Part shown: one piece after another, positions 3,964 through 33,801 of the stretch | How positions within the stretch are numbered: position 1 is the first letter of the stretch | Layout of the letters: each line of letters begins with the position of its first letter | Origin: a virus | Reading direction: 5' to 3' (one strand) | DNA: 46,294 nt | IMG/VR virus record: IMGVR_UViG_3300042319_000694 | Coordinates: 1 to 46,294 of that record | Notes under the pieces: generated by a model | Databases searched by the model: none | What the model was told of the DNA's origin: nothing | Seen by the model: the letters and a program-made list of their open reading frames with translations, nothing else | Program-made: the position numbers and the translations under genes

Positions 3964-3970
3964 TATTTAT
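3964..3970 (-). promoter_or_regulatory. Late promoter box, 5 nt before ATG
   Basis: Minus strand GATAAATA-TACTT-ATG. The box overlaps the last codon of gp17. The spacing of 5 nt between ATAAATA and ATG recurs at other genes here, and no Shine-Dalgarno can fit after the expected transcription start. Confidence 0.7.
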
Positions 3971-7615: not shown

Positions 7616-7622
7616 TATTTAT
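7616..7622 (-). promoter_or_regulatory. Late promoter box, 5 nt before ATG
   Basis: Minus strand CATAAATA-CACAT-ATG, overlapping the stop codon of gp16 (7619-7621). It starts the three-gene unit 7610-5615. Confidence 0.72.
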
Positions 7623-10008: not shown

Positions 10009-10015
10009 TATTTAT
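10009..10015 (-). promoter_or_regulatory. Late promoter box, 5 nt before ATG
   Basis: Minus strand CATAAATA-TTTGT-ATG, lying immediately past the terminator 10021-10052. It drives the unit gp48/54-like, 121-aa protein, gp4 and gp16. Confidence 0.75.
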
Positions 10016-16099: not shown

Positions 16100-16106
16100 T
16101 ATTTAT
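16100..16106 (-). promoter_or_regulatory. Late promoter box of gp13, 5 nt before ATG
   Basis: Minus strand GATAAATA-CTTGT-ATG. It is back-to-back with the plus-strand box at 16114-16120. Confidence 0.75.
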
Positions 16107-19539: not shown

Positions 19540-19792
19540 TAGATTTCAAGAGGACTGTGAGAAGTATCGTACAGCCATTGATAGCATGCCCGACGGCGTA
19601 GCCAAACAGGAATCTCAACAACTGTTGAATAAACTGATTGGGGAAATAAAAAAATTAGACAGCATGCACATGGAAATGGTCTATAGTCGACAACTGCCTT
19701 CTATGGGCGGTGAAATGAAGCAGGATATCACAGCTATAAGACAAAAATTAGAAACCAGAATCAAAGACTGGGCACAGGCACAGAAAAATTAA
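19514..19792 (+). CDS. Small coiled-coil hypothetical protein
   Basis: 92 residues, almost entirely helical and charged: FQEDCEKYRTAIDSM, QESQQLLNKLIGEIKKLDSM, MEMVYSRQLPSMGGEMKQDI, RQKLETRIKDWAQAQ. This layout (two helices, a MV-x-RQLP-x-MG turn, a final helix) recurs in a marine T4-like phage family without known function. A GGAG Shine-Dalgarno lies in the previous gene. Last gene of the plus-strand neck operon; its stop shares bases with the stop of the convergent tail-fibre gene. Confidence 0.72.
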   Translation: MSNLLQRSSRFQEDCEKYRTAIDSMPDGVAKQESQQLLNKLIGEIKKLDSMHMEMVYSRQLPSMGGEMKQDITAIRQKLETRIKDWAQAQKN

Positions 19793-21882
19793 ATACTAGC
19801 GAAGTTTTTAATTGTAATAGTGCCTACCATACCAGCATGACTGCCACACTGATATCTGTAGTTGCCGGAAATACTATCCGGAATCTTCCAATACAAGGTA
19901 CCAGACGACTTGCCCTGTGCAGCTGATCCTGTACTAACTGTACCATCGGAGCCCACATGTACCAACCCAGTGTTGTAATTTGTGCCAGTGTTGTCCTGTA
20001 TCAAGAAAGGATGGCCGGCAGCTCCTACCAAATTAAATGCTATGGTGGTAGCATTAATGGCATATATTGTAGGATCGTCTGTGGTACCATATTGATCAAA
20101 TCTATAGGCTGTGCTGCCGTTAGCAGTGACATTTAATCTCGTGATTGCTGGGAGATAGAACTGGTCAACAGTGATACCTGCAGTATAAACATCTGTCAGT
20201 CCTGACAAATTAGTTGCGCCGGCTGATACGGTATTGGTGATTGTAACAGTATCTGTACTAGCATCTGTTGTGATTGTAATACCCGTGCCTGCTACTAGTG
20301 TCAATGTATCTGTACTAGAATCTGCTACTACATTACTTTGTCCTGCCACAGCTATGGTAGCAAAACTATCGGAAGCTGTGCCGCCACCCGCAGCAGCGAT
20401 TGTTATCGTGTCTGTGCTGGCGTCTGTGGTTATGGTAATATTTGATCCTGCTATCAACGTCAATGTATCTGTGGCCGAATCTGCTACAACGTTTGATTGA
20501 CCGGCTACAGCTATGGTAGCAAAGCTGTCCGATGATGAGCCGCCTGAAACTGTGGCCCAAGAGTTATCACCACGGAGATAGGTACTAGCACTAGCTGTTC
20601 CTGTGGCTCCGATTCGTCCTATTGGCACAGTACCCGACGTTAACTGTGTGGCATTAAGTGCTGTTAAATTAACCCCTGAACTTGCAGGCAGGGTAGCTGG
20701 AAATCTTGCATCGGGTACAGTACCCGACGTTAACTGTGTGGCATTAAGTGCTGTTAAATTAACCCCTGAACTTGCAGGCAGGGTAGCTGGAAATCTTGCA
20801 TTAGGTACAGTACCCGAAGTTAATTCTGTAGCATTTAATGCTGTTATCAAACTGCCATTACCGCTAAAACTGGTAGCAGTTAATAATCCTGCATCTGATA
20901 TAGTTGCAGAACTGTTTTGTATAATAGTACCTGTGGTACCGTCATAGCGTATGATAGCATTATCCACATATCCGCCACCCGAGCTTAGTACATCTCCTGT
21001 TCCTGCTCCTGAAGCGCCCGGGGGGCCAATATCTCCCTTGGGTCCCGGAACACCAACAGCACTGGTCTGCTGATATGTGCCGTCTGGAAATACAATAGCG
21101 TTTCCAACTACAATATCTGAATCAAAGGCCACTGTAGGAGTGAATGTAATAGTAGAACTGTCTGCGGAATCTATAGTAGTTCCCACAAAAGTGATGCTAC
21201 CTGTGCTGGTGGTTGAATTAATTGTTATAGTATCGGTGCCAGCATTAGTAGTAATAGTAATATTAGAGCCAGCAACCAATGTTAGTGTGTCAGTAGTAGA
21301 GTCAGCTTCAACCGTAGACTGGCCAGCTACCACAACAGTACTAAACGAGTTAGGCAAACTAGATTCGCTGGCTACTGCTACCCAAGCACCTGCATGAGCA
21401 TAGTATAATTTTCCTGTATCATGTACATGTGCAACCATGCCATGATAGTCTATCGGCGACACTTCTGCATTAAGATCTGCTAGAGTGTCCCAGTGAAATC
21501 TGATTCGATTTTTCTGACCGGTGATATCTATCACACCCGACAATACCAGCGTGTTAGTAGAATCATCTAACCATGTTAATGCCGTTAAGTCATTGACTTG
21601 AGAACCAGTCGACGGGTAATAGGCTATTTTTCCAGCCACACCCGATTGCACTCCGCCACTGAATCCTGCAGAATTTGCTTTGGCTAAGAAATCTGCATTA
21701 GATATATTGGTTAAATCTGCTTTTGCAAGATTTACACCGCTAGCTGTGGTGCCGTTATACAGTCTCAGAGTGTTATCTGTTCGATCATAAAAGATTTCAC
21801 CGCGATTTCCGGATCTTCTATCAAGAAAATCCGCTTCTCTAGGTATGATTCTTACTGCGTCAAGTACTGGTATCTTTGCCAT
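19789..21882 (-). CDS. Tail fibre-like protein with collagen-like stretch, repeats and cupredoxin-like C-terminus
   Basis: 697 residues, Ser/Thr/Gly/Ala-rich. The N-terminus (GEIFYDRTDNTLRLYNG, 28-44) resembles fibre/virion attachment segments. A 43-residue beta repeat (AGQS..ADS.TDTLTL.AG) occurs at about 180-222, 454-495 and 507-548. A collagen-like run of six Gly-X-Y triplets lies at 277-294 (GVPGPKGDIGPPGASGAG). A 30-residue unit (ALNATQLTSGTVPDARFPAT...) is tandemly repeated at 349-378 and 379-408 with a partial third copy. The C-terminal about 80 residues look like a cupredoxin: H624, then YQCGSHAGM with C679, H682 and M685. Late box 5 nt before ATG, no Shine-Dalgarno. Confidence 0.75.
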   Translation of the reverse strand: MAKIPVLDAVRIIPREADFLDRRSGNRGEIFYDRTDNTLRLYNGTTASGVNLAKADLTNISNADFLAKANSAGFSGGVQSGVAGKIAYYPSTGSQVNDLTALTWLDDSTNTLVLSGVIDITGQKNRIRFHWDTLADLNAEVSPIDYHGMVAHVHDTGKLYYAHAGAWVAVASESSLPNSFSTVVVAGQSTVEADSTTDTLTLVAGSNITITTNAGTDTITINSTTSTGSITFVGTTIDSADSSTITFTPTVAFDSDIVVGNAIVFPDGTYQQTSAVGVPGPKGDIGPPGASGAGTGDVLSSGGGYVDNAIIRYDGTTGTIIQNSSATISDAGLLTATSFSGNGSLITALNATELTSGTVPNARFPATLPASSGVNLTALNATQLTSGTVPDARFPATLPASSGVNLTALNATQLTSGTVPIGRIGATGTASASTYLRGDNSWATVSGGSSSDSFATIAVAGQSNVVADSATDTLTLIAGSNITITTDASTDTITIAAAGGGTASDSFATIAVAGQSNVVADSSTDTLTLVAGTGITITTDASTDTVTITNTVSAGATNLSGLTDVYTAGITVDQFYLPAITRLNVTANGSTAYRFDQYGTTDDPTIYAINATTIAFNLVGAAGHPFLIQDNTGTNYNTGLVHVGSDGTVSTGSAAQGKSSGTLYWKIPDSISGNYRYQCGSHAGMVGTITIKNFASI
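20627..20801 (-). repeat. Direct repeat of 85 identical bases, period 90
   Basis: Bases 20627-20711 are identical to 20717-20801; a diverged third unit begins near 20807. The period equals 30 codons and the repeat encodes the tandem 30-residue unit of the tail fibre. The absence of silent differences suggests recent duplication or gene conversion. Confidence 0.92.
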
Positions 21883-21887
21883 ATTAT

Positions 21888-21894
21888 TATTTAT
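21888..21894 (-). promoter_or_regulatory. Late promoter box of the tail fibre, 5 nt before ATG
   Basis: Minus strand AATAAATA-ATAAT-ATG in the 17-nt gap after hldD, letting the fibre be expressed independently of the sugar island. Confidence 0.7.
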
Positions 21895-21899
21895 TCAAA

Positions 21900-22769
21900 T
21901 TAGTAATAACGATCTTTAGCCAAATAATCTATGTATGCTGCGATGCCCTCATGCACTTTGGTGAAACTTTCGACATCTACCCCTGATTTTGTTAACAACG
22001 TCATATCAGCTAATGTATTTATTTGATACTGTTTTTTAAGATCATCGGGCATATCTACAAATCTTTTTTTGCCTTTGTTTGTGTTAGATATTACTAGATC
22101 TGCTACAGTTTCAAAATCCGTGTTGGATCCGCTGCCGAGATCATAAATTCCGGGTTGATAATTTTCAAACATAAAATGATATATGGTTTTTGCTATATCT
22201 TCCACCCATACAAAATCTCTAAAATAATTCTTGCTGTTTTCGAATATCGTTATTTCTTCAGTTTCTTTGATTTGATTAACCCAATGTAAAATTGTAGAAG
22301 CCATTCTGCCTTTGTGATACTCATTGGGTCCATACACATTAAACAATCGAAGGACAACTCCTTCTACTTCGTTTTCGCTGAGTAGTTTGCTGAATGCGTA
22401 TTGATTCATTGGGCCGGCGCCGTTGCCATACACCGATGCGCTAGAAGTAAAAATAAAAGGTATTTTGCGTTGTTTACAAAATACATTCCATTTCCTTGTA
22501 GATTTAACATTGGTTGCATAGATCGAGCTCCAATTTTTTTCTAGAGTATTGGCATTTGCACCAATGTGTATAACTCCGGTGACGGTTTCATCGATTGCAT
22601 CGATGTCATCTACAGAAACAAGTCTGTTGTACTGTTTACCTATGAGATTTTTATATTGATTTTCATAAGGCAGATCGTCAACTATAATAATATCAGTGAC
22701 TCGTTGCGAATTCAAGTATCCTAATACCACACTACCGATAAATCCTCCAGCACCAGTTAATATGATCAT
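21900..22769 (-). CDS. hldD: ADP-L-glycero-D-manno-heptose 6-epimerase (HldD-like)
   Basis: 289 residues (E. coli HldD 310). Extended SDR fold: NAD(P)-binding TGAGGFIGS (5-13), SSASVYG (109-115) and the catalytic YAFSK (Y124, K128). RLFNVYGPNEYHKGRMAS (141-158) is a strong HldD-type signature, including the HKG-x-MAS segment, which separates it from GalE and dTDP-glucose dehydratases. HldD converts ADP-D-glycero- to ADP-L-glycero-manno-heptose, the donor for LPS inner core. The start overlaps the kinase stop by 4 nt and has a GGAAG Shine-Dalgarno. It forms a pathway with the next two genes. Confidence 0.88.
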   Translation of the reverse strand: MIILTGAGGFIGSVVLGYLNSQRVTDIIIVDDLPYENQYKNLIGKQYNRLVSVDDIDAIDETVTGVIHIGANANTLEKNWSSIYATNVKSTRKWNVFCKQRKIPFIFTSSASVYGNGAGPMNQYAFSKLLSENEVEGVVLRLFNVYGPNEYHKGRMASTILHWVNQIKETEEITIFENSKNYFRDFVWVEDIAKTIYHFMFENYQPGIYDLGSGSNTDFETVADLVISNTNKGKKRFVDMPDDLKKQYQINTLADMTLLTKSGVDVESFTKVHEGIAAYIDYLAKDRYY

Positions 22770-23533
22770 TTGATTTCTTCCAGTCTCGGTGCATATACAC
22801 CTATATGTTGAACTGTTACTGCCGACGCTTTGTTTGCAAATTTAACAGCATCGGGCATGTGTCCTGTTTTTAAAAACTCGTATACCAATGCTGCTAAAAA
22901 TGTATCGCCGGCGCCGCATACATCGATTACATCGCCTACAATTTCAGCGGCATATGTCCAACCATTCCAATAAGCGCCATCTCCGCCGTGTGTGACAATC
23001 AAGTGCTGTGAGTTAGGTAGGCTTGTTGCACGACTTTTTTCTAATGCATTGATCTTAATATAACACCCTGCTAGTCTTGCTAGGTCTGTTTTCTTTGTAT
23101 CAACAAAGATAGGCACGTTGGCTTCTTTAACCAGTTCTTCTATTAATTCGTAGGTTACTGTGCCTTTGTTGTAGTCACTGATTACAACAGCATCATACAC
23201 AGGCGGTATTGCTGTTTCAAATTTGATAGGTTCACTTATGATGTCTTTATCTAGTCGAATTAATTGCTGTTTACTACGAATATCAATTAGTCGATTCTTT
23301 ACACTAGTTTCGCCGTGTAAAAAATTAACATGACACCCCAATGCTTCTAGATTTTTGGCAACGTTTCCTGCCATACCGGCTTTGGTTACAATGTACTTGG
23401 ATTCAAACACCGGTACTGGTGCTTCAGGACTAATACGATTTACATCTCCGTAGGTATATATGTCTTCACCGATATCACCGACTAATAATATCTTGTATTT
23501 TACCTGTGGTTGAATACTGTTGGAGTCTTTCAA
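22766..23533 (-). CDS. hldA: Heptose-7-phosphate kinase, PfkB family (HldE/RfaE kinase domain)
   Basis: 255 residues, shorter than the about 315-residue HldE kinase domain. GDVNRISPEAPVPVFE (29-44) is the HldE-specific version of the N-terminal PfkB motif; AGMAGNVAKNLEALG (52-66) and the C-terminal DVCGAGDTF (204-212, catalytic D210) complete a PfkB kinase. The product would be heptose 1,7-bisphosphate. The start is TTG at 23533: an in-frame TAG lies three codons upstream, no ATG precedes the conserved part, and AAAGGA is suitably placed. The first 59 nt overlap the end of hldC in another frame. Confidence 0.85.
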   Translation of the reverse strand: MKDSNSIQPQVKYKILLVGDIGEDIYTYGDVNRISPEAPVPVFESKYIVTKAGMAGNVAKNLEALGCHVNFLHGETSVKNRLIDIRSKQQLIRLDKDIISEPIKFETAIPPVYDAVVISDYNKGTVTYELIEELVKEANVPIFVDTKKTDLARLAGCYIKINALEKSRATSLPNSQHLIVTHGGDGAYWNGWTYAAEIVGDVIDVCGAGDTFLAALVYEFLKTGHMPDAVKFANKASAVTVQHIGVYAPRLEEIK

Positions 23534-23876
23534 AATATACTATCCTTTTGCAATGCTCTGCTCCGATGACATGTTTGTCTCGGTAATCACTACCTTTAAC
23601 CATTATATCTGGTGCAAACTCTTTTATTAATCTATCTAATTCCTCGTCAGAATCAAATGTTTCTACTCTGTTGACTGATTTTAATGCAAATAAAAAACTA
23701 CAACGTTCATATTCGCTGTGTATAGGTCTTGACGATCCTTTGAGTTCTTTAATCCTACGATCGCTGTCTGTTAATACCAACACGTAACTATTAGGATAAC
23801 TTTTTGCATGTTCTAATAATCTTAAATGACCAAGATGCAATATATCAAATGACCCGTTTACTACTACTTTTGTCAT
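23475..23876 (-). CDS. hldC: Heptose 1-phosphate adenylyltransferase (HldC/RfaE2-like)
   Basis: 133 residues, the usual size of a stand-alone cytidylyltransferase-fold domain. NGSFDILHLGHLRLLEHAK (7-25) holds the HxGH nucleotide-binding motif (HLGH, 13-16); VKGSDYRD - VIGAE (about 93-106) and YSTTGKI (121-127) are the RfaE C-domain motifs. It transfers AMP from ATP to heptose 1-phosphate giving ADP-heptose. In E. coli this domain is fused behind the kinase; here it is a separate gene placed before the kinase and overlapping it by 59 nt. Confidence 0.88.
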   Translation of the reverse strand: MTKVVVNGSFDILHLGHLRLLEHAKSYPNSYVLVLTDSDRRIKELKGSSRPIHSEYERCSFLFALKSVNRVETFDSDEELDRLIKEFAPDIMVKGSDYRDKHVIGAEHCKRIVYFERLQQYSTTGKIQDIISR

Positions 23877-23877
23877 G

Positions 23878-24450
23878 TTAGTGATCTAATGTATACCATC
23901 CGGTTATAATATATTTGTAACCGTTATATATGGGGTTTCCTCTGTGGGGGTGAGTGAAATAGGCAGGCCAAATAACCAACTTGCCGGTTTCTGGTTTAAT
24001 CTTAAGACCTTGATACAGAAATTCTGTTTCGCCGCCCTCTTCAATATCATTGAGATACAGGGTATAGGCCAGGATTCTATTGGCTGATGATTGGTCTGCA
24101 TTTTCACAATGCCACGCATGGTAGCCTTGGCGCGGGCCGGTTCTCTGTACGCTCATGCCCTTGGGTGTGTGTTGAAAACAAAATCCAAGACTCTGATATT
24201 TTTCAAAGTACTGTTCTATATAATACTTGTTTAGAGTCTTATAAAAGAAAGAACACAGGTCAGGATCTACGCTGAAATTTTGTTGACTGTGAAATGCCCA
24301 ATCAAAAAATATTCGATCGTCCTGATTTTTCATCATGCTATTTTGTGTGAGATGTTGACCCATTTTAACCATATCTTCAAATCGTTGTATGATAGTTTCA
24401 CAGTAGTCTTTGGGAAATGCATCTGGATATACTTCAATAAAATTCATCAT
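23878..24450 (-). CDS. 2OG-Fe(II) dioxygenase, prolyl 4-hydroxylase-like
   Basis: 190 residues. The double-stranded beta-helix core is clear: YHAWHCE with H114 and E116 (HxE instead of the usual HxD), RILAYTLYLNDIEEGGETEF (125-144), IKPETGKLVIWPA (151-163), THPHRGNP (distal His at 167 or 169) and YKYIITGWY with K179 as 2-oxoglutarate anchor. This order and the YLND-x3-GGETEF segment are those of prolyl 4-hydroxylases. Substrate unknown; candidates are a virion protein (a collagen-like fibre is encoded about 3 kb away) or a sugar. The start overlaps the cupin stop; GGAG Shine-Dalgarno. Confidence 0.82.
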   Translation of the reverse strand: MMNFIEVYPDAFPKDYCETIIQRFEDMVKMGQHLTQNSMMKNQDDRIFFDWAFHSQQNFSVDPDLCSFFYKTLNKYYIEQYFEKYQSLGFCFQHTPKGMSVQRTGPRQGYHAWHCENADQSSANRILAYTLYLNDIEEGGETEFLYQGLKIKPETGKLVIWPAYFTHPHRGNPIYNGYKYIITGWYTLDH

Positions 24451-24806
24451 TGACTATCTCCGGGAAATATTCTAAAATTATCTTCTACTGAATCAGGAGT
24501 ACTCACTTCAACTATGATTGAATTGTCTTCCAACGCTTCAAGTTGATGCGGTAACCCTGGAGGATTATGCCAATTATCGCCTGTGTTTAAGATTTTTTCC
24601 TGCATGGTAGCAGTCTTTGTGTCTATGTATCTTAACAAGAAACGACCCTGATTGACATTCCAGCTTTCATCTTTGACCAGATGATAATGCATGCTGAACT
24701 TGTTGCCGGCATTGACGAACACCAGATATTTTCCACAGTATTGATCGGTGGACGAAAATATTATTTCGTGGCCCCAACCTTTTTCTATTTTACCAAATAA
24801 TTTCAT
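24447..24806 (-). CDS. Cupin, sugar-phosphate isomerase-like
   Basis: 119 residues, single cupin domain. EKGWGHEIIFSSTDQYCGKY (8-27), MHYHLVKDESWNVNQGRF (39-56; metal-type H40, H42 and E47) and PPGLPHQLEAL (82-92; H87) match the cupins related to type II mannose-6-phosphate isomerase C-domains and other nucleotide-sugar cupins; EVSTPDSVEDNFRI is also typical. It might isomerise or epimerise a sugar phosphate or only bind one. In a heptose cassette lacking a visible GmhA it is a candidate for an early step, but that is speculation. Overlaps both neighbours by 4 nt. Confidence 0.75.
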   Translation of the reverse strand: MKLFGKIEKGWGHEIIFSSTDQYCGKYLVFVNAGNKFSMHYHLVKDESWNVNQGRFLLRYIDTKTATMQEKILNTGDNWHNPPGLPHQLEALEDNSIIVEVSTPDSVEDNFRIFPGDSQ

Positions 24807-25315
24807 TTTTGAATATAATTTAAGTTAATAATAATTCTTCTTTTTGCATCTGTTGCACTTTTCATTTTATGAGAAATATTGGTATCGAAAATTAATACCC
24901 TGTTTTCAACAGAATCAATCTCGATTATTTCGTTTTCAACTGTTATCATCGTTTTAGCATTGCATGTTGTTAGATATAATATGACCGTTTTAGAATTTTC
25001 ATAGGTATTATCGACATGCCAAGAAGATTCGTATTGATCTTTTTTACTTATAGTCATATTTGATCTAAGTTCTATTAATGAAGAGACTTTTAATTTAGCT
25101 AAAAATGGTTCTAGTAAATTAAAAAAAGGACTATAAACACGGTTGTTTAAAAAGAAGTTATGTGTAAAATAACACGCACCGTGTTCATCGTCTGATGTCA
25201 TGTTGTCTCTATAAAACCAATTCATATCTAATGAAGTTAGTGTATTTTTTATTGTATCAAAATATTCTTTATCTAAAAAATTATCTATTACTTCGTACTC
25301 TGATTTTTCAGTCAC
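24803..25315 (-). CDS. 2OG-Fe(II) dioxygenase-like protein
   Basis: 170 residues from a GTG start at 25315 with an AGGAG Shine-Dalgarno. The facial triad is visible: SSWHVD (H100, D102) and ISHKM (H149), with R159/R160 as possible 2-oxoglutarate ligand. RVLIFDTNISHKM before the distal His is typical of small phage and bacterial dioxygenases. The surrounding DNA looks more AT-rich than the structural genes, which may mark separate acquisition. Substrate unknown. Confidence 0.72.
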   Translation of the reverse strand: MTEKSEYEVIDNFLDKEYFDTIKNTLTSLDMNWFYRDNMTSDDEHGACYFTHNFFLNNRVYSPFFNLLEPFLAKLKVSSLIELRSNMTISKKDQYESSWHVDNTYENSKTVILYLTTCNAKTMITVENEIIEIDSVENRVLIFDTNISHKMKSATDAKRRIIINLNYIQK

Positions 25316-25333
25316 AATAAAAATTCTCCTGAA

Positions 25334-25894
25334 TTAACCGTAGATTTCTGCAGCATCATGATCTTTTACCGATACATCCATGTTCCACGAAATGATTGTT
25401 TTGGTTTCTTCTGAGATATTAATCGGGGCTCGGTGAATTACCCAGCTAGGAAATGTAATAATATCACCTTCATGTACATCAAATGTATGAACATCTTTTG
25501 TTACAGGATCTATCCATTCTGTTTGTGCGCTGCCCTCAGGCAAATGCACATAATATACGTTGGTAAAGTTGTTGCTATGAGTATGCCAGGCATGCTTTCC
25601 CCCTGTGGCATATTGTTGGAACCAAATTTCAGTGATACCAAATGTTTGATATCCCATGGTATTACACCATTCGTTGAGATGAACAGCAAGCGGATAATTT
25701 ATAATTTTAAGCCACTCCCTATCGCCATCACATCGAGATGTACTCCAATCACATCTGATGATATCGCTGTTAAATGCCAGCATGTGTTCTGCACTATCTT
25801 GTCTTGATATAGCATCTATTACTTGTTGCTTTAGTTGCGTATGTTCCTTAAATGGTTTAATACTTATAGGAAACGGTATAACAGTAGATGACAT
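25334..25894 (-). CDS. 2OG-Fe(II) dioxygenase/cupin-like protein with HxH motif
   Basis: 186 residues. The core WFQQYATGGKHAWHTHSNN (91-109) contains H104-x-H106, then VYYVHLPEG, VHEGDIITFPSWVIHRAP (140-157; distal H154) and TIISWNMD. This is the arrangement of the putative 2OG-Fe(II) oxygenases related to TIGR02466, in which the usual HxD is HxH. Metal dependence is likely, chemistry unknown. Coupled by a one-base TAATG overlap to the gene upstream. Confidence 0.7.
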   Translation of the reverse strand: MSSTVIPFPISIKPFKEHTQLKQQVIDAISRQDSAEHMLAFNSDIIRCDWSTSRCDGDREWLKIINYPLAVHLNEWCNTMGYQTFGITEIWFQQYATGGKHAWHTHSNNFTNVYYVHLPEGSAQTEWIDPVTKDVHTFDVHEGDIITFPSWVIHRAPINISEETKTIISWNMDVSVKDHDAAEIYG

Positions 25895-26505
25895 TAATAC
25901 AAACTACCTTGTCTTTTTATTACTATGTTTGATGCAAACACAACTCTTGATTCAGTTGTCTGATTATGATATACATAGTGTTCGAGACAAGAAGGAAATA
26001 TTATCAATACTCCTTCTTGCATTGGTGGTTTATATATGTTTGGATATCGATCCAACGGATCTAATTCTAGATACTTTAGATGATTTGATAAATTAGGGGC
26101 CCTAAAAACCAACTGGCCTGAATTTTCATTGGGTTGCTTTAGTATAACCACACATGAAAATGCTGGTACATTTGTTGTTATGTGATTGTGTAACTGTTGA
26201 TGATCATATTGATTATGCACATTGTACCATGTATCTATTTCAACTTTATAGGGAAATTGAAACATGAACGAGTCTATGTAAGATTGGATATAGGGTGCCG
26301 GCAGTAATGTATCATTCCATTTTTTAAAAAAGTCAGCATCGCCCCAGCGTTGAGATGCATTTTTAGAAATTCTGCTCTCATCACCTTTGAATTCATCTTC
26401 TTTGCCATTTAATATCAATGGAAGATAATGATCCTGTAGCATTTTTAAATCTGCAGGATTCAAACGAGAAATGCTTACCGGGTATCCTTCAAGTTGTATC
26501 ATCAT
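25894..26505 (-). CDS. 2OG-Fe(II) dioxygenase-like protein with HxH motif
   Basis: 203 residues. WYNVHNQYDHQQLHNHITTN (93-112) carries H106-x-H108, then FSCVVILKQPNENSGQLVFRAP (116-137), EGVLIIFPSCLEHYVYHN (164-181; distal H176) and SRVVFASNIVI with R187. The overall plan matches the neighbouring dioxygenase-like proteins but sequence similarity by eye is low, so they are diverged family members, not recent duplicates. Substrate unknown. TAATG overlap with the SGNH gene. Confidence 0.7.
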   Translation of the reverse strand: MMIQLEGYPVSISRLNPADLKMLQDHYLPLILNGKEDEFKGDESRISKNASQRWGDADFFKKWNDTLLPAPYIQSYIDSFMFQFPYKVEIDTWYNVHNQYDHQQLHNHITTNVPAFSCVVILKQPNENSGQLVFRAPNLSNHLKYLELDPLDRYPNIYKPPMQEGVLIIFPSCLEHYVYHNQTTESRVVFASNIVIKRQGSLY

Positions 26506-27230
26506 TAGATAGTATCTTTGGTATACATGCCAGTTTTAAAATCACTTGTGAGATCCACAGTTTCACCGGTGTTAAAAAACTTAAGCACTTTGTCTGCTAA
26601 AATTTTATGGTTGACTTCTGAAAAGTGATTATAACGCAGATCGCTGGTTTCAGCACGATATATCGCAGCCGTTTCCTCTGAGTCAAACTCAGAGCTTGAG
26701 GCTTTGAACAGGGTTCCTTCTACTCCCGCGACAGTGTGAAACCCTGGCAGGACCAAACATCGAATACCTTGTTGTCCATATAGCATAGTTCTAAAAGTTA
26801 TCGCATCGAGAATTGCATCATAGTGTAACAAAAGACGATGATCGGAATACAAATATCGTTGATACAGTTCTAATGCCTTGGCTTGTTCTTTTGTAACATG
26901 AACTCCTGGCACCCATTTTGCATTTATGAAATTCGCCATGCCTGGTTTATCTTCAAAAAACCATTCTCTGTAATAAGAAGTAAGTTGTATTATAACACAG
27001 TCACCAGTTTTAAATAACGATTCGCGAGTTCTTAGGGTATGCAAAATATACTCATTGGAACAGCCCAGAACAGCGTCATTTACATGATTATCATTCCCGA
27101 TTATATTTTCACTAACAATCCTAGTCCAATTCTTTTCTAAAGGCATAAATGTTACCAGACCCTTAGGCCCAATAACTTCATTCTTGTGTGCATCGGGTAC
27201 ACTAAAACTATCGCCGAAAATATATAACAT
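26505..27230 (-). CDS. SGNH/GDSL-type hydrolase-like protein
   Basis: 241 residues. N-terminal IFGDSFS with the block I GDS (6-8, nucleophile S8), LGCSNEY (55-61) giving the block II/III Gly and Asn, and near the C-terminus SDLRYNHFSEVNH (196-208) supplying Asp and His of the catalytic triad. Similar proteins in marine phages and in polysaccharide gene clusters act as esterases or, in related families, as acyl-group handlers on sugars. No signal peptide, so a cytoplasmic role, perhaps removing or moving acyl groups on the island's glycan (inference). Confidence 0.75.
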   Translation of the reverse strand: MLYIFGDSFSVPDAHKNEVIGPKGLVTFMPLEKNWTRIVSENIIGNDNHVNDAVLGCSNEYILHTLRTRESLFKTGDCVIIQLTSYYREWFFEDKPGMANFINAKWVPGVHVTKEQAKALELYQRYLYSDHRLLLHYDAILDAITFRTMLYGQQGIRCLVLPGFHTVAGVEGTLFKASSSEFDSEETAAIYRAETSDLRYNHFSEVNHKILADKVLKFFNTGETVDLTSDFKTGMYTKDTI

Positions 27231-27859
27231 TAATTAGTTGCCCCTGTTTCTAACAAAATATTAAAAGACAAGCTAATACGATCCTCATTGGTTGTATTTT
27301 CACCAACACTGTGATCTAAATAGCCAGGCCACAAACTTAATCTACCTTGTTCTGGAGCGAATGCGTTTTCATGAGCATATGAACTACCAATTGGATTGCA
27401 TTTTAATGCTTTAAGAGCATTTCTAAAAACTAGATCACCGTCTTGTCCATTTGTTTTAAACCAATACACTCCACTAACGTGGCTAGTACCGTGATCGTGA
27501 ACATGAGCATACTGACCCGGTTTAGTTAGTGTAAGCCATGAAGTTTCGATGGCTGCTTTGTACAGCGGTTTAACATCCATCATTCTCATATAATTGAAAC
27601 AATGATGCATAATACACGAGGTGATCACTCTCATTTTTTCGTCTTTTAAAATAGACTGGTTAAAATTACCTTGGTTAGATAGGTGATGAGTGCTGGAATT
27701 CCAATATGGATTTGGTCCCCAACGATTTTCTAGGTGCAGTTTATCAACCACGGTCTGCATCTCGGCTTGTATTTCATGATATTCTGTGCTTTCTGTTTTA
27801 TATGTGTATAGGGGTGTGGGGAACAATGAGTAAATTCGGCCCTGAGTTTGATTGTTCAT
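27230..27859 (-). CDS. Putative 2OG-Fe(II) oxygenase of the TIGR02466 type
   Basis: 209 residues. Starts YSLFPTPLYTYKT as TIGR02466 members do, and contains ETSWLTLTKPGQYAHVHDHG (105-124; H121-x-H123), HVSGVYWFKTNG, GDLVFRN, QGRLSLWPGYLDHSVGENTT (171-190; distal H183) and RISLSFNI with R194. These are the family hallmarks. Members are widespread in marine T4-like phages; substrate unknown. GGAGG Shine-Dalgarno. Confidence 0.82.
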   Translation of the reverse strand: MNNQTQGRIYSLFPTPLYTYKTESTEYHEIQAEMQTVVDKLHLENRWGPNPYWNSSTHHLSNQGNFNQSILKDEKMRVITSCIMHHCFNYMRMMDVKPLYKAAIETSWLTLTKPGQYAHVHDHGTSHVSGVYWFKTNGQDGDLVFRNALKALKCNPIGSSYAHENAFAPEQGRLSLWPGYLDHSVGENTTNEDRISLSFNILLETGATN

Positions 27860-27872
27860 TTTTCCTCCATAT

Positions 27873-28463
27873 TTAAATAAACATCATCTGATTGATTCTG
27901 TAGGCATCTCCAACAAACCAATCAGGTTGCATTACTGCGGTGTGAACATCAGTTTGTCTATATAATGCCAATCTATTAAACGACATCTCTGCATAACCTA
28001 GTTCTTGTCCGGTGTCAGAATAAAAAGCTGTACCGCCGTGAGATTCGTCATTGTAGTTTAAATATACCGATGCTGCGAATCTACCCGGATCTGCACTATC
28101 TCTATGGGGAGTTGGCTGGTCTTGTCCTTGCATTACATTTACCATAAATGTTATAAAATCAAATGTTTTACGTATGTCATTATCAGTCTTGCGAGGCCCG
28201 TCATTGAAATTTTCGCTGATTAGCTTGACAAATGTATCGGCTAAACTTGTTAGATCGATACCAAGACTAATTGACAGGCCAGGGTACGTATTTCTAATCA
28301 TGCTCTTTGACGCAGGGATAGACAGAGCCAACTCTCTAACTTTTTCAGGATTAAGATAAAAGTTATCAACAATGACACATTTGGTATCACCTAATTGATG
28401 TACATGTACTTCAAAATTAGGATTAACTGCAAATATGTCTTGTTCATTTATTTTTTTAATCAT
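27873..28463 (-). CDS. DUF6445-like 2OG-Fe(II) dioxygenase-type protein
   Basis: 196 residues. FYLNPEKVRELALS near the N-terminus, then TPHRDSADPGRFAASVYLNY (118-137; H120, D122), HGGTAFYSD, and VHTAV with H174 and RINQMMFI with R189 at the C-terminus. The PHRDS and GGTAFY motifs and the MMF-type end fit the DUF6445 group that occurs in tailed phages and near sugar-modification genes. Substrate unknown. Overlaps the carbamoyltransferase stop by 4 nt (ATGA). Confidence 0.75.
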   Translation of the reverse strand: MIKKINEQDIFAVNPNFEVHVHQLGDTKCVIVDNFYLNPEKVRELALSIPASKSMIRNTYPGLSISLGIDLTSLADTFVKLISENFNDGPRKTDNDIRKTFDFITFMVNVMQGQDQPTPHRDSADPGRFAASVYLNYNDESHGGTAFYSDTGQELGYAEMSFNRLALYRQTDVHTAVMQPDWFVGDAYRINQMMFI

Positions 28464-30283
28464 GCTCTGTCATTATGTTCAATCTCTACCATCATTTTAA
28501 CAGCTGGAAAATAAATGTAATTAATTCCTGAATTATAAAGAGTACGCATGGCATCGTCTATGGTTTCAACCAGCGGCTCGCCGCCTAGGTTAAAGCTGGT
28601 ATTAAACAATGCAGGCACACCTGTTTGATTTTTAAATTCTTTGATTAGATTATACCAATGAAAGTTTTGTTCTTGAGTCACTGTTTGAATTCTGCAGGTA
28701 CCGTCAACGTGTATAACTGCTGGAATCTTTTCTTTCACGCCAGGCTGACAATTTACAGCATACATCATAGAAGGGGAATCTTCCATGCCACGCAGATCAA
28801 ACCAATCGTGTACATCATCTTGTAATACTGATGCAGCAAATGGTCTAAAATATTCTCGTTTTTTAATTAAATTAACAAAATCTTTACCGTCGGCAAATGT
28901 TGGATCAAACATCAATGATCTATTGCCTAGTGCTCTGGGACCGTTTTCGCATCGTTCTTGAAATAATGCCACAATGTTTTTAGATCTAATAGTCTTAATA
29001 ACATCTTTGTAATCAACATTTATTGTTACACTACCACCATACTTGGCCGCAGTTTCTATTACTACATCTTCAGTGATATGTTGTACTGGACCTAAAAATA
29101 AATTTTCATCTTTTGATCTTACTTTTGTATCTTGAGATGTTTTATAGTAATGATAAAGTGCAGCACCCATTGCAGTACCGGCATCGTTTGATACTGGCTC
29201 AACATAAATCTTTACACCTTCCGGTAGGTGCTGTAGATAGAAATAGTTGGCAACACAATTCAACCCGTACCCGCCGCTGATAACAATATTTTTATTACCT
29301 GTACGTTTGATTGATTTTAGAATCAAGTCAAGTACTAGTTGCTGAGATTCAGTTTGGACATTATAGGCCATGTTTCTTCTAGAAGCTAATTTCGTTACAT
29401 CTTCTGCATTGGCTTCCAGCATTTGTTGCTCGTAACGCTGCAATTGTCGTTGATTGTTAGGGTCAGTCACTGATCTATGAATTACTTTTGGATCGTACAC
29501 TCTGTCATCCAGCTCAGCATAGACTTCTTCATTGACTAGTGCGCCATTGGGATAAGTTGGAACAATTAAATTTTTATTTGCACCAAATTTTTCATAAATC
29601 GTTGGTGCTTTGTTTGGCTCTCCATAGGGGAATAGTCCCATGGTCTTGCCTGCTTCTATCGAGTCGAATCCGCAGAATCTAGTAACAGCTTCGTATGCTT
29701 TAACAATACCTGCTTTGTCATTAACTATAACTTCTGTACCGTTCCCATCACTATTGTAGTGTTCAGTCCTCCAAGGTCCGTTGCCTCCAAAATGCTTGTA
29801 CACTTCCTCAAAGTTTGCAGGGTATGAACAATCATATATACTTTCAACTTCAAACATGGTTCGACCGTCTGGGCGTTCAATAAATGTACCTGCACCATCT
29901 ACAATAATAGCATTTGCTTTATCAAACCCAGATCTATAAAATGCCAACGCGGCGTGACTTCTATGGTGTTGATCGTGATATTTAAATACTTGGGTATCAA
30001 CATCGTCGATTAATCTCAACTTCCTAGCAAGTGCAGAATACACATCTTGCCTTACATAATCGTTTATTGGTTCGTCGTCATCTTGTGTGTGAGATATTGC
30101 CAAATAATCGATCTTGTCAGTATAGTCAAGAATTTTAATCATACTCGCAAGCGGGCCGCCGTCATATTTGTAGCGAGATAGTCTTTCTTCTTCAATAGAA
30201 AATACAATTTGTCCATCTTTTAAAAGACAAACTCCTGCATTATGCCCTCGAGCAATACCTGCAATATATCCTGTTTTTTGCAT
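28460..30283 (-). CDS. Carbamoyltransferase of the NodU/CmcH family
   Basis: 607 residues from ATG at 30283, preceded by AAGGA; an ATG at 30301 would add six residues but lacks a good site. The N-terminal half is an ASKHA-type domain: IAGIARGHNAGVCLL (8-22), SIEEERLSRYKYDGG, QHHRSHAALAF (about 105-115) and IIVDGAGTF. The C-terminal YrdC-like half has ISGGYGLNCVANY, EPVSNDAGTAMGAAL, ERCENGPRALGNRS and FNTSFNLGGEPLV. The family carbamoylates hydroxyls of sugars or antibiotics from carbamoyl phosphate. With dioxygenases and a glycosyltransferase nearby, the acceptor is probably a glycan. Confidence 0.92.
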   Translation of the reverse strand: MQKTGYIAGIARGHNAGVCLLKDGQIVFSIEEERLSRYKYDGGPLASMIKILDYTDKIDYLAISHTQDDDEPINDYVRQDVYSALARKLRLIDDVDTQVFKYHDQHHRSHAALAFYRSGFDKANAIIVDGAGTFIERPDGRTMFEVESIYDCSYPANFEEVYKHFGGNGPWRTEHYNSDGNGTEVIVNDKAGIVKAYEAVTRFCGFDSIEAGKTMGLFPYGEPNKAPTIYEKFGANKNLIVPTYPNGALVNEEVYAELDDRVYDPKVIHRSVTDPNNQRQLQRYEQQMLEANAEDVTKLASRRNMAYNVQTESQQLVLDLILKSIKRTGNKNIVISGGYGLNCVANYFYLQHLPEGVKIYVEPVSNDAGTAMGAALYHYYKTSQDTKVRSKDENLFLGPVQHITEDVVIETAAKYGGSVTINVDYKDVIKTIRSKNIVALFQERCENGPRALGNRSLMFDPTFADGKDFVNLIKKREYFRPFAASVLQDDVHDWFDLRGMEDSPSMMYAVNCQPGVKEKIPAVIHVDGTCRIQTVTQEQNFHWYNLIKEFKNQTGVPALFNTSFNLGGEPLVETIDDAMRTLYNSGINYIYFPAVKMMVEIEHNDRA

Positions 30284-30306
30284 TATTTTTCCTTGTAGCA
30301 TTTATT

Positions 30307-31293
30307 TCAAGCACAACCAGGCGCAGAACACCCAGCAGCTTGTTTAGGTTCAACATACGCCTTGGCAGTTTTACCTAATGTGGTTTTAATTTGTTTGACA
30401 ATTGTCTTGACAGTTTCGTCACTAAGCACCATTAGATTTTCATTGTGTCTATCAATTCTAATGTCTACCGCAACTCTTATTGGAGAATATTTTCTTTCGT
30501 CTTTGCCGTTATCGATTATAGTAAGTGTGCTGCTGCTAGGATACGAAATATTTTCAGGGAATGTGCCGCCTATAACCACCGTGCCCGGTTTCTTCAAGGC
30601 ATGTGCAATATGCTGTCCCACTGAGTCACAGCCCAAGAAATAATCAGCAGCATTGATAATTGCAGTCCATTGCAATAAACTAACACTCTCTGGCACCATT
30701 ACTCCTAGTGCTTTGTTTCCAGGAACTTTCAACTCGCTCATCATTATAACAGCATAATCTTTATTCAGTTCTTCAAGTATTTTTACAATATCATCAACTT
30801 CAAATGATCTACCACTTTCGTCGATGATGGTGTTGCCCTGTAATCCAGCTGTTTTTCCAAATGGTTGGAAGATTACTACTTGTTGCTTTTTAAAATGATT
30901 TCTAGCTTCATTGACTAGTTCGTTTGCTTGTGCAATATCCTTTTTTCCAATGAAGATGTTATATTCTTTGGTTTCTGGGATGATTTCAGGAGGAACATCG
31001 TAGTTGATCAGCATGTCAAACGCTTGAACAAGATTGCATCTTTGAGTAAAGTATGCGTTTAGTTTATACGGTTCGGGGGTTATGATTTCTCTATCTTTTA
31101 ATTTTTCAAAAAGATCTGGGTTGGTAGCATGATGCACATTATTTGCTAATGTTTTGCTGGTTAAATATAGATCGATCCAACCTTCAACAACAATGACTGC
31201 TGTTGGATCAGTATTTTTAACATAGTATTCTAGTGCGGGAATGGCACATAGTACTCGGCCTGCGCCGCCATTTATAAAAAATGCTTTTTTCAT
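30307..31293 (-). CDS. GT9-like (ADP-heptosyltransferase superfamily) glycosyltransferase
   Basis: 328 residues. MKKAFFINGGAGRVLCAIPALEYY at the start resembles the acceptor-side GDxxLxxPxL motif of GT9 enzymes; QVVIFQPFG (about 138-146) and CDSVGQHIAHALKKPGTVVI (about 235-254) match the donor-site D-S/T-x-G-x-x-HxAxAL-x-x-P signature. GT9 enzymes transfer heptose from ADP-heptose, so its place in an operon with hldC, kinase and hldD is meaningful. The C-terminus carries an unusual CSAPGCA. First gene of the island, with ATAAATA 30 nt upstream and an AAAGG Shine-Dalgarno. Confidence 0.75.
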   Translation of the reverse strand: MKKAFFINGGAGRVLCAIPALEYYVKNTDPTAVIVVEGWIDLYLTSKTLANNVHHATNPDLFEKLKDREIITPEPYKLNAYFTQRCNLVQAFDMLINYDVPPEIIPETKEYNIFIGKKDIAQANELVNEARNHFKKQQVVIFQPFGKTAGLQGNTIIDESGRSFEVDDIVKILEELNKDYAVIMMSELKVPGNKALGVMVPESVSLLQWTAIINAADYFLGCDSVGQHIAHALKKPGTVVIGGTFPENISYPSSSTLTIIDNGKDERKYSPIRVAVDIRIDRHNENLMVLSDETVKTIVKQIKTTLGKTAKAYVEPKQAAGCSAPGCA

Positions 31294-31323: not shown

Positions 31324-31330
31324 TATTTAT
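31324..31330 (-). promoter_or_regulatory. Late-type box upstream of the sugar-modification island
   Basis: Minus strand AATAAATA, 30 nt before the GT9 ATG with AAAGG in the leader. It is the only late-type box I see between 31408 and the start of the 13-gene island, so it may drive all of it. Confidence 0.55.
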
Positions 31331-31371: not shown

Positions 31372-31399
31372 AGTATTGTGCTGTTGCCAGCACAATACT
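31372..31399 (-). other. Perfect 11-bp hairpin after the tail-fibre assembly gene
   Basis: AGTATTGTGCT (31372-31382) and AGCACAATACT (31389-31399) with a 6-nt loop, 8 bases past the stop at 31408. No uridine tract follows on the minus strand. It may be a processing or stability hairpin separating the adhesin transcript from the island. Confidence 0.65.
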
Positions 31400-31407
31400 A
31401 TTCGAAA

Positions 31408-32121
31408 TTAATAAACGCCTGGGGGTAGATTTTGTAAAGCATCAGCATCAGAGGCATCTCTGTCTGCGATCATAATAACACCAATATTCTCTGCAAATTC
31501 CATATTGGGTCCGTCTTCGGGACTCCGCGGAAATCTCACAAGATAGTTAGGAACCTCTAACCAATCGTCAGGAAGGTCTCTGAGTTTTTGTCTATAATCC
31601 AACCATTGTTGTTTTAGAGATTCTGGCATATCTGGAGCAATTTTGCCATCACTTGCAGCTAGTTTTGAATTTCTCATGCTTCTAAGCCACTCATCACTTC
31701 TATCTCTTTTGTACTCAAAGAATTTAAGCGGTGCTGTGTAATCGTCAGTTACAGATTGTTTATCATAAACTATTCTAACATCTGAAGGATCTACAACTGT
31801 GGCATTTGGTTGATCAACTGGGCCAACAGAAACTTCGTAGATCTTTGGTTTTTCTAATCCGCCGTAGATCAATCCAATTTTGCAGCAGTTTATGTCAGTG
31901 TCTGCTTTTAATATTTCTCTTTTGAGATTCAATGGTAGTGGACGATCAGGTTCATCTTCTGGTGCATAGCACTCCATCAAATACCCAGTTTCTTTGTCGA
32001 GCCACATGACTATTTCTTCTGGGCCTTCGTATAGCTGTGTACTGGTTTTACCTAACGTATTTTCCAACGAATATAAGTGATCCGGTATGCTGTATGTCAG
32101 CATTTTGGTTATTTTTGCCAT
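31408..32121 (-). CDS. Tail fibre assembly-like protein
   Basis: 237 residues. The segment LKQQWLDYRQKLRDLPDDW (about 169-187) is the hallmark of phage tail-fibre assembly chaperones and related proteins (a W-x2-YR-x2-LRD pattern). The N-terminal part is beta-rich (SIPDHLYSLENTLG; IVMWLDKETGYLMECYAP). Such chaperones help fibres trimerise, and the gene directly follows the adhesin genes. AAGGAG Shine-Dalgarno. The family is diverse, so the chaperone role is inferred. Confidence 0.65.
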   Translation of the reverse strand: MAKITKMLTYSIPDHLYSLENTLGKTSTQLYEGPEEIVMWLDKETGYLMECYAPEDEPDRPLPLNLKREILKADTDINCCKIGLIYGGLEKPKIYEVSVGPVDQPNATVVDPSDVRIVYDKQSVTDDYTAPLKFFEYKRDRSDEWLRSMRNSKLAASDGKIAPDMPESLKQQWLDYRQKLRDLPDDWLEVPNYLVRFPRSPEDGPNMEFAENIGVIMIADRDASDADALQNLPPGVY

Positions 32122-32131
32122 TTATTTCTCC

Positions 32132-32959
32132 TTAACTATATGTTATTTTAACAAGACCACCGGCACCAAAACTGCCCCAACACGCACTAACTGATGCAGT
32201 GGCATGTCCTGCGCCACCTCCACCCGGGAAAGCTGCGTGTGCCGAACAGCAGGCCAAGTTGCCTACGCACATATGTTTACCGCCAATGCCGTGTCCTGCT
32301 GAAATTGGTCCAGACGGTGATCCTGCAACAGAAAAGTGATCAGCACAGCAGTCATATTGAGCATTGTATGATCCAGAGGTTCCTCTAAAACACATATCGG
32401 ACCCGTATACTGGGTCATTACACACGTTGGTAATCCAACCGGCATTGTAGTTGCCCACGTTGCATTGAACGTTACCAATGTGGCAGTTATAACATTGTGA
32501 GATCATGTCCCATGAAGTTGACCCACCCATGCCACCAATGGCACAGAAGTTGCTGAGACCAGTGCCATTGACAAAGCTGGTGCATCCGTGACGGCAATTT
32601 TGGTTACATGAACAGCAGCAGCTACAGTTTGACGATCCTGCGGCACACACTGTGTATACTGTGCCATCTGTAAATCCATTCACTGACTTGGTCAATGTTC
32701 TTACGCCATAATTTCCGCCTTGACCGCCACACCCGTGATCATAGTCACCACCTGATGAGCCACCTGGGCCACCACCTGATAGTATTTCAAATTTTATAGA
32801 TGTTGTTCCGTTAGGCACTGTCCAAGCGCAACAACGACCACCATTCTCTGGTGTCCAGTTGTTGGTGTTCCATACGTATAGTTCATTGAGTTCTGCAATT
32901 TTACATTGGTGTTGGCTATTGCCATAAACGATACCAACGTTTGATAATTGTACTGGCAT
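32132..32959 (-). CDS. Cys/Gly-rich putative tail-tip adhesin, copy A
   Basis: 275 residues with 24 cysteines. Short N-terminal segment MPVQLSNVGIVYGN, then ELYVWNTNNWTPENGG, then glycine-rich motifs LSGGGPGGSSGGD, CGGQGGNYG, GGMGGST, PGGGGAGHA and GSFGAGGLV alternating with variable stretches; this resembles the Gly-rich distal adhesins (gp38 type) of T-even-like phages. A dense cluster NCSCCCSCNQNCRHGC lies at about 110-125. Cys count is extreme for a cytoplasmically made phage protein and could reflect metal binding or disulfides formed outside. AAGGAG Shine-Dalgarno. Adhesin role is inferred. Confidence 0.65.
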   Translation of the reverse strand: MPVQLSNVGIVYGNSQHQCKIAELNELYVWNTNNWTPENGGRCCAWTVPNGTTSIKFEILSGGGPGGSSGGDYDHGCGGQGGNYGVRTLTKSVNGFTDGTVYTVCAAGSSNCSCCCSCNQNCRHGCTSFVNGTGLSNFCAIGGMGGSTSWDMISQCYNCHIGNVQCNVGNYNAGWITNVCNDPVYGSDMCFRGTSGSYNAQYDCCADHFSVAGSPSGPISAGHGIGGKHMCVGNLACCSAHAAFPGGGGAGHATASVSACWGSFGAGGLVKITYS

Positions 32960-32973
32960 TTTCTAATTTCTCC

Positions 32974-33801
32974 TTAGATATATGTTATTCTAACAAGGCC
33001 ACCTGCGCCAAAACTGCCCCAGCAGGCATTAACTGAGTCAGTTGCGTGTCCTGCGCCGCCGCCACCTGGGAAAGCTGCATGTGATGAACAGCAGGCCAGA
33101 TTGCCTACGCAGCGATGTTTGCTGCCAATTCCGTGTCCTGCAAAAAACGGACCGCTTGGTGAGCCTTGAACTGAGAACGCATCAGCACAACAGTTGTACT
33201 GATGATTATATGACCCAGATGTTCCTCTAAAACATACATCAGATCCGTATACTGGACTATCACAAACTTGGTTAACCCAACCAGCATTATAGTTGCCCAC
33301 GCTGCATTGAACATTGCCAATATGGCAGTTATAACAGTTAGAGATCATGTCCCAGTTGGTCGATCCACCCATGCCACCAATAGCACAGAAATTGCTGAGG
33401 CCAGTGCCATTGACAAAGCTGGTGCATCCATGACGGCAATTTTGATTACATGAACAGCAGCAGCTACAGTTTGATGATCCAGCAGCACACACCGTGTATA
33501 CTGTGCCATCTGTAAATCCATTCACTGATTTTTGCAGTGTTCTTGAGCCGTAGTTGCCGCCTTGACCGCCGGTGCCGTGATCTGAGTCACCACCTGACGA
33601 GCCGCCTGGGCCACCACCTGACAATATTTCAAATCTGATTGAAGTAACGCCTGCGGGTACTGCCCAAGCGCAACAACGACCGCCATTCTCTGGTGTCCAG
33701 TTGTTGGTGTTCCATACGTATAGTTCATTGCGTTCTTCAATGCGGCACTTGTGTTGACCATTGGCAAAAATAATTCCGCAATTCGATAACTGTACTGGCA
33801 T
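32974..33801 (-). CDS. Cys/Gly-rich putative tail-tip adhesin, copy B
   Basis: 275 residues with 23 cysteines, the same length as copy A and nearly identical in the Gly-rich and Cys-cluster parts, differing mainly at scattered sites between them (for example ISNC versus ISQC, FFAGHGIG versus ISAGHGIG, DHGTGG versus DHGCGG). The two genes are separated by 14 nt in the same orientation, so they arose by tandem duplication. Differences concentrate in the loops between Gly motifs, as expected for receptor-binding loops. GAGGG Shine-Dalgarno. Confidence 0.65.
   Translation of the reverse strand: MPVQLSNCGIIFANGQHKCRIEERNELYVWNTNNWTPENGGRCCAWAVPAGVTSIRFEILSGGGPGGSSGGDSDHGTGGQGGNYGSRTLQKSVNGFTDGTVYTVCAAGSSNCSCCCSCNQNCRHGCTSFVNGTGLSNFCAIGGMGGSTNWDMISNCYNCHIGNVQCSVGNYNAGWVNQVCDSPVYGSDVCFRGTSGSYNHQYNCCADAFSVQGSPSGPFFAGHGIGSKHRCVGNLACCSSHAAFPGGGGAGHATDSVNACWGSFGAGGLVRITYI

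Follow-up and report, generated by a model that had tools for sequence, protein, structure and literature searches.

A viral gene island that joins a GT9-type glycosyltransferase and a carbamoyltransferase to cysteine-rich tail adhesins

The IMG/VR virus record IMGVR_UViG_3300042319_000694 (46,294 nucleotides, the whole of which is referred to here as the window) carries, at 21900-31293, an island of enzyme genes that includes a GT9-fold glycosyltransferase (GT9), a TobZ/NodU-type O-carbamoyltransferase (CarbT), ADP-heptose genes, a sugar cupin and a set of oxygenase-like genes. What does this island modify? A first-pass annotation proposed either a virion protein or a host surface glycan as the target. 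Upstream of GT9 lie the gene of a tail assembly chaperone-like protein (F2) and two copies of a Gly-rich adhesin gene (F3). We found a new association: GT9-CarbT is consistently found beside tail adhesins with about 9-10% Cys, and such Cys-rich adhesins are found with GT9. The linkage favors the virion side of the earlier proposal and disfavors host lipopolysaccharide (LPS), and we consider it reasonably probable that the island is a decoration system for the tail adhesins of the phage's own virion.

A GT9 scan gave 80 loci, and a scan with cyanophage GT9s gave at least 569 relatives, of which 80 were kept. The islands are mutually related, and the counts below are not independent events. GT9 and CarbT were adjacent in 136/136 loci, and 129 of 131 loci had F3 no farther than 3.5 kb upstream of GT9. 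The two loci lacking F3 (L088 and L089) have Cys-rich proteins without detectable F3 similarity in the same place; in L088 (10016-13161), from a single-cell marine virus, proteins of 758 aa and 290 aa with 9.6% and 10.7% Cys stand beside GT9. Further, a Cys-rich open reading frame (ORF) was present upstream of GT9 in all 185 loci with at least 4 kb of upstream sequence, some contigs being counted twice through overlapping loci. In two F3 scans, GT9 was found beside F3 in 54/54 and 55/56 loci with enough downstream sequence (109/110 together), and the lone F3 locus without GT9 is a 5.4-kb contig ending in a halogenase gene. The first-pass annotation regarded the island as inserted between a tail fibre and the adhesin genes. 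This location is correct, but the adhesins are part of the conserved core, which consists of Cys-rich adhesin, GT9 and CarbT, and are not mere neighbours.

The F3 proteins adjoining GT9 contain 17.7% Gly and on average 9.6% Cys (n=305), while the other window proteins longer than about 130 aa contain 0-2.1% Cys. We compared the PF21722 family inside and outside the islands. Inside GT9 islands its members have 8-12% Cys; in the GT9-minus Syn9, S-ShM2, S-SSM5 and HTVC008M they have 0-1.8%, apart from one truncated ORF with 3.4%, and a remote PF21722 protein in the GT9-plus P-SSM2 has 0.4%. Similarly, 140 Gly-rich proteins from 70 IMG/VR loci with Syn9/S-ShM2-type adhesins have a median of 0.6% and a maximum of 5.5% Cys, and the 987 kb of these loci contain no gene for GT9, CarbT or an Hld enzyme. 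Therefore, Cys enrichment is confined to the linked adhesins and follows the enzymes, not the fold. Cys content is intermediate, at 3-4%, in a protein with 33-36% Gly that is encoded close to Syn9-type adhesins at loci lacking GT9 (L355 6534-7475 and others like it). The F3 model was of modest quality (pLDDT 68), with the cyanophage Pam3 fibre and the Bxb1 tail-tip protein as best matches.

We then considered what the Cys residues do. Among close F3 relatives, Cys sites are 6.5-fold less changeable than other sites and Cys makes up more than 90% of each of 14 columns, indicating that the Cys residues matter. They may be structural, forming inter-chain disulfides or binding metal, and merely accompany a sugar system whose attachment sites are Ser, Thr, Asn or Tyr residues in the adhesin or in another tail fibre. 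Such a role agrees with the strong conservation and with the CC and CxC patterns common in F3. However, of 169 dereplicated F3 proteins, 84 have an even and 85 an odd number of Cys, and in 164 of 815 close pairs one member has exactly one Cys more than the other, which argues against simple intrachain disulfides; a structural role also leaves the dependence on the enzymes unaccounted for. We consider the structural explanation possible, though rather doubtful. Alternatively, Cys is possibly the attachment site of the heptose/carbamoyl decoration. Sugar on Cys of a small secreted protein is the product of the glycocin S-glycosyltransferases (SunS-type), which are GT2-type enzymes with hexose donors and bacteriocin acceptors; if Cys is the acceptor in F3, the two systems would share this feature. 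A literature search on S-glycosylation gave nothing on phage adhesins, and no paper on a Cys-rich tail fibre in a cyanophage was found. A bolder version, which we put forward tentatively, is a widespread, unrecognised viral system in which adhesin Cys would bear S-linked carbamoyl-heptose tailored by swappable oxygenases and halogenases, adhesin chemistry would be varied by enzyme swaps, and the triad of adhesin, GT9 and CarbT would have been passed to an archaeon.

The identities of the two core enzymes are in line with a role in heptose transfer and carbamoylation. GT9 gave a sub-threshold match to PF01075 in Pfam, and its sequence profile found no relatives among PDB sequences; the relatives came from a fold search. 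With the AF2 model (pLDDT 86), Foldseek retrieved the GT9 structure 3tov (2.9e-10) and WaaF 1psw (4.4e-10), and also WaaC 2gt1 and TibC 4rap. The protein has the GT-B fold and a conserved donor-site motif of the GT9 family, with GxDSxGQH invariant in the alignment (D223-S-x-G-Q-H228). Judging from the model, it is probably an ADP-heptose-donor transferase. Both domains of CarbT scored above the Pfam cut-off, and its PDB matches were TobZ (1.1e-39) and GdmN. Thus, the carbamoyltransferase, the GT9-like transferase and the sugar cupin named in the first-pass annotation are all upheld, as is its general outline of a system combining a heptose sugar, carbamoylation and oxygenases.

We propose the following mechanism, whose order of steps is inferred. 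HldE1, HldE2 and HldD of the phage would make ADP-heptose, with the cupin as probable isomerase and the phosphatase step of the window variant supplied by the host. GT9 would move the heptose onto the adjoining Gly/Cys-rich F3 adhesins (32132-33801), and CarbT would O-carbamoylate it, as WapO does in Pseudomonas LPS. The variable oxygenases and the SGNH protein would tailor the sugar or adhesin side chains, which might affect adsorption and host range.

For the donor pathway, the best NCBIfam matches of HldD, HldE1 and HldE2 were TIGR02197, TIGR02198 and TIGR02199, all under the curated cut-offs; supported by synteny and fusions, they represent the epimerase, kinase and adenylyltransferase of ADP-heptose synthesis. 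The pathway claimed at first is thus borne out in these three activities and is incomplete in the window, where GmhA and GmhB are absent. A search for GmhA (SIS fold, PF13580) in 14 phage records, among them several complete cyanophage genomes, gave nothing, although the E. coli positive control was matched. GmhB was found neither in the island of the window, whose record is a 46-kb fragment, nor in those of its closest relatives. Among 71 closed islands with the heptose block, 20 have GmhB and 44 a small HAD protein (64/71 together), and the remaining seven are of the window type. In sister groups of the window, a 214-aa GmhB-like HAD phosphatase is part of the island (L058, L041 and 17 further loci); islands of the window type lack it. 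The cupin, which matched D-lyxose isomerase 2y0o, L-ribose isomerase, mannose-6-phosphate isomerase and other cupins and in some relatives occurs as an HldE2 fusion, was present in 71/71 closed islands with the heptose block and in 0/13 without it. From these observations, we predict that it probably stands in for GmhA as heptose-phosphate isomerase.

Some annotations and gene histories around the heptose block also deserve mention. Cyanophage proteins of about 110 aa annotated as phosphoheptose isomerase (L082 24312-24656, L083 19055-19390) gave a weak HAD signal and no SIS match; we rejected that annotation, and they may be phosphatases. The 'cysteine dioxygenase' beside them is a sugar cupin. 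The window HldE2 (23475-23876) is just 49% identical to the protein in the same place in L011, L012, L016 and L018, whereas the cupin is 96-97% and HldD 90-93% identical, implying that one gene was replaced inside the operon. Window relatives have an additional HldE2-like gene outside the island, in a longer open frame of 258-268 aa (G001 145572-145910, G004 49557-49898, G007 40459-40680).

Heptose genes in phages have been discussed before in another light. Sullivan et al. (2010, PMC3037559) reported that T4-GC 304, 305, 307 and 308 (HldE2, HldE1, cupin and HldD) co-occur in P-SSM2, S-SM2 and S-SSM7, named the heptose genes LPS genes, and stated that whether cyanophage LPS genes function was not known. 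These clusters share the four families with our island, and we found the identical GT9-CarbT-adhesin slot in the cultured cyanophages P-SSM2 and S-SSM7, and also in S-CAM1, S-CAM3 and Sf-FS3. The claim that no such system had been described therefore has to be narrowed: the core was already listed, without function or target, and the earlier text contains no Cys-rich adhesin link, cupin-HldE2 fusion or payload logic. No description of the adhesin link was found in the searchable literature, most subscription journals lying outside it.

In keeping with the LPS naming, the island might act late on host LPS or capsule, preventing virions from re-binding to debris or blocking superinfection, with the adhesin linked as a glycan binder. 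GT9 and WapO-type carbamoyltransferases do modify LPS core heptose in known bacteria, and S-SM2 (L238) and S-T4 (L239) have HldE1, HldE2, cupin and HAD among several other glycosyltransferases with no GT9 or CarbT, indicating that phage heptose has other uses too. However, heptose and KDO are both missing from the LPS of marine Synechococcus (PMC4515613), although its phages have the complete block; an LPS inner-core acceptor is hard to reconcile with this. In addition, this explanation leaves unexplained why linked adhesins, including non-homologous ones, have about 10% Cys when unlinked relatives are low. One GT9-CarbT-adhesin set also serves both cyanophages and a PA5oct-related lineage, whose hosts are presumably different: the window terminase is 54% identical to those of Pseudomonas jumbo phage PA5oct and relatives, and the long contigs of window relatives do not carry psbA, so the window phage is probably not a cyanophage. 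Taken together, we consider modification of a host glycan unlikely.

The triad was also found in an archaeal contig, a further point against a host glycan. On L246, a contig titled Woesearchaeota, genes for enolase, TruB, HhH-GPD repair and ribosomal L10e surround the segment 8040-13317, where GT9, CarbT and a HAD gene accompany the gene of a Cys-rich Gly_rich_2 protein whose N-terminus is signal-like. Occurring in one genome of 353 in the order, the triad appears to be a sporadic transfer or, less likely, part of a chimeric contig. No phage receptor is in play in an archaeon; if L246 is real, the Cys-rich protein itself would be the acceptor.

Several points weigh against decoration of the adhesins. 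Co-inheritance could also be expected if an adhesin were linked to a receptor-modifying enzyme, and the conserved F3 Cys could hold chains together or bind metal. The GT9 model reaches TM-scores of only 0.5-0.6 with GT9 structures. Heptose genes are absent from 13 of 84 closed islands (the other 71 have HldE1, HldE2 and HldD), implying that the donor there comes from the host or is another sugar. The archaeal triad occurs on a single contig of a metagenome-assembled genome, with none in 352 further genomes of the order (1/353).

Among the known systems closest to the proposed adhesin decoration are the bacterial autotransporter heptosyltransferases (BAHTs) TibC and AAH, with the adhesins TibA and AIDA-I, in that a dedicated ADP-heptose glycosyltransferase gene of GT-B fold stands beside a surface adhesin gene. 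The iron finger of BAHTs contains four conserved Cys, and these enzymes also have an N-terminal beta-barrel domain (PMC4358343). In contrast, no such four-Cys set is conserved in 29 GT9 sequences, and the AF2 model begins directly with the GT-B fold; we therefore rejected BAHT membership, although by analogy GT9 may work like a BAHT. The island further differs in its own heptose pathway, its carbamoyl and oxygenase steps, and the predicted phage tail adhesin as acceptor. In Pseudomonas, the LPS inner core likewise involves a heptosyltransferase and a putative carbamoyltransferase, WapO, which acts on heptose O-7 (PMC8005017); the acceptor there is LPS, whereas linkage indicates an adhesin here. 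Phage adhesins modified by glycosylation or otherwise are scarcely known. If our proposal is true, a large group of aquatic T4-like phages customises its own tail tips by mix-and-match enzymes, and host range and sequence-based adhesin prediction need rethinking. It also gives the cyanophage 'LPS genes', a question since 2010, a concrete target, and it leads us to expect a cupin isomerase in place of GmhA and sugar chemistry on Cys-rich adhesins.

The island varies among relatives around its core, and the chemistry of the module is present in many ocean and lake viruses. With fusion proteins (cupin-HldE2) assigned to families domain by domain, the common gene order is adhesins F3 with chaperone F2, then GT9-CarbT, payload and heptose block. 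All 13 genes stand in the window's order in L010, L011, L012, L014, L016 and L018. In eleven closely related islands, GT9-CarbT-DUF6445-2OG-SGNH-2OG (2OG, 2-oxoglutarate oxygenase) is retained and heptose genes are lacking; in other relatives the heptose block is inverted or shows a cupin-HldE2 or HldE1-HldE2 fusion. We counted 35 different payload sets, including oxygenases, tryptophan-halogenase-like proteins (PF04820) and a second carbamoyltransferase. Co-occurrence of the 13 families, suggested earlier as a check, thus holds for the full order in several contigs and for GT9-CarbT throughout; the heptose block can be lost and the payload swapped. The tally of 84 closed islands rejects a fixed 13-gene unit: the window order is one variant of a wider module with fixed GT9-CarbT, a separable heptose block and a variable payload. 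In marine relatives, the halogenase-like proteins are repeatedly encoded between the CarbT and HldE2 genes (L083 15511-16998 and many of the loci L090-L169).

Of the six 2OG-like proteins counted at first in the window payload, four scored above the Pfam cut-off, and DUF6445 and the product of 24803-25315 gave weak or sub-threshold 2OG matches. The SGNH assignment is tentative: the alignment shows the motifs GDSF and GxSN (GCSN) and a conserved C-terminal His, with no profile or PDB match. The oxygenases might instead have general roles independent of the adhesin, such as 2-oxoglutarate balance and NtcA signalling, repair of DNA, or modification of its bases together with the carbamoyltransferase, as was proposed for cyanophage 2OG-Fe(II) proteins (PMC3037559). 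However, they lie within a late-promoter tail operon under selection, and their combination changes along with the decoration module rather than with replication genes. Family profile scans of the 13 island proteins matched no methyltransferase, TET-like or JBP oxygenase family, and we rejected DNA base hypermodification by a TET-like oxygenase and carbamoyltransferase. General oxygenase roles are thus highly improbable. The annotations phrog_274 'DNA endonuclease V' and phrog_1644 'minor coat protein' both match 2OG-like proteins of the island.

Features of the island and its borders, listed in the direction of transcription.
Feature	Position	Strand	Basis or remark
F3 copy 2, Gly-rich adhesin, proposed acceptor	32974-33801	-	ORF list and composition; 8.7% Cys
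F3 copy 1, Gly-rich adhesin, proposed acceptor	32132-32959	-	PF21722; 8.7% Cys (24/275)
F2, tail assembly chaperone-like	31408-32121	-	PF16778; conserved beside GT9 by synteny
Perfect 12-bp inverted repeat, 4-nt loop	31372-31399	-	between tail chaperone gene and GT9
Late promoter motif ATAAATA, T4/cyanophage-type	31324-31330	-	31 nt upstream of GT9 ATG
GT9-fold glycosyltransferase, 328 aa	30307-31293	-	phrog_8954; AF2 model; fold search
CarbT, NodU/TobZ-type O-carbamoyltransferase, 613 aa	28460-30301	-	PF02543 and PF16861
DUF6445, 2OG-oxygenase-like, 196 aa	27873-28463	-	PF20043, 73 bits; weak 2OG match
2OG-Fe(II) oxygenase, 209 aa	27230-27859	-	PF13759 above cut-off
SGNH-hydrolase-like protein, 241 aa	26505-27230	-	motifs only
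2OG-Fe(II) oxygenase, 203 aa	25894-26505	-	PF13759 above cut-off
2OG-Fe(II) oxygenase, 186 aa	25334-25894	-	PF13759 above cut-off
2OG-oxygenase-like, 170 aa, GTG start	24803-25315	-	sub-threshold PF13640; phrog_274 6.6e-45
Sugar-isomerase-like cupin, 119 aa	24447-24806	-	profile matches to isomerase structures
2OG-Fe(II) oxygenase, 190 aa	23878-24450	-	PF13640 above cut-off
HldE2, heptose-1-phosphate adenylyltransferase, 133 aa	23475-23876	-	TIGR02199 1.3e-28
HldE1, heptose-7-phosphate kinase, 255 aa, short form	22766-23533	-	TIGR02198 1.5e-39; phrog_8133; GAGD motif
HldD, ADP-heptose 6-epimerase, 289 aa	21900-22769	-	TIGR02197 3.7e-67; YxxxK and GxxGxxG present
Tail fibre with collagen-like GPKGDIGPPG stretch	19789-21882	-	downstream border; own late motif 21888-21894

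The island is filled exactly by 13 consecutive minus-strand ORFs, in agreement with the one-strand coupled unit first described. Of 12 junctions, seven are overlaps of 1 or 4 nt, four are gaps of 1-18 nt, and one, between HldE2 and HldE1, is an overlap of 59 nt, where the TTG start of HldE1 is uncertain. The GC content of the island is 0.369, against 0.439 in the remaining window. Compared with relatives, all 13 genes had dN/dS of 0.03-0.42 and look to be under purifying selection.

The late-type promoter noted earlier was found again as the ATAAATA motif, and a late promoter ahead of GT9 is plausible from its sequence. A motif search showed that the exact T4 late promoter TATAAATA is absent; we rejected it, and the shorter ATAAATA fits instead. 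The inverted repeat at 31372-31399, with no T-run on its 3' side, is a candidate terminator or processing hairpin. The window holds eight ATAAATA copies, every one on the minus strand, and five of them are followed by ATG at a fixed 5 nt (21888-21894, 16100-16106, 10009-10015, 7616-7622 and 3964-3970). At these five copies, the expected late transcription start is near the start codon, implying possible leaderless late mRNAs.

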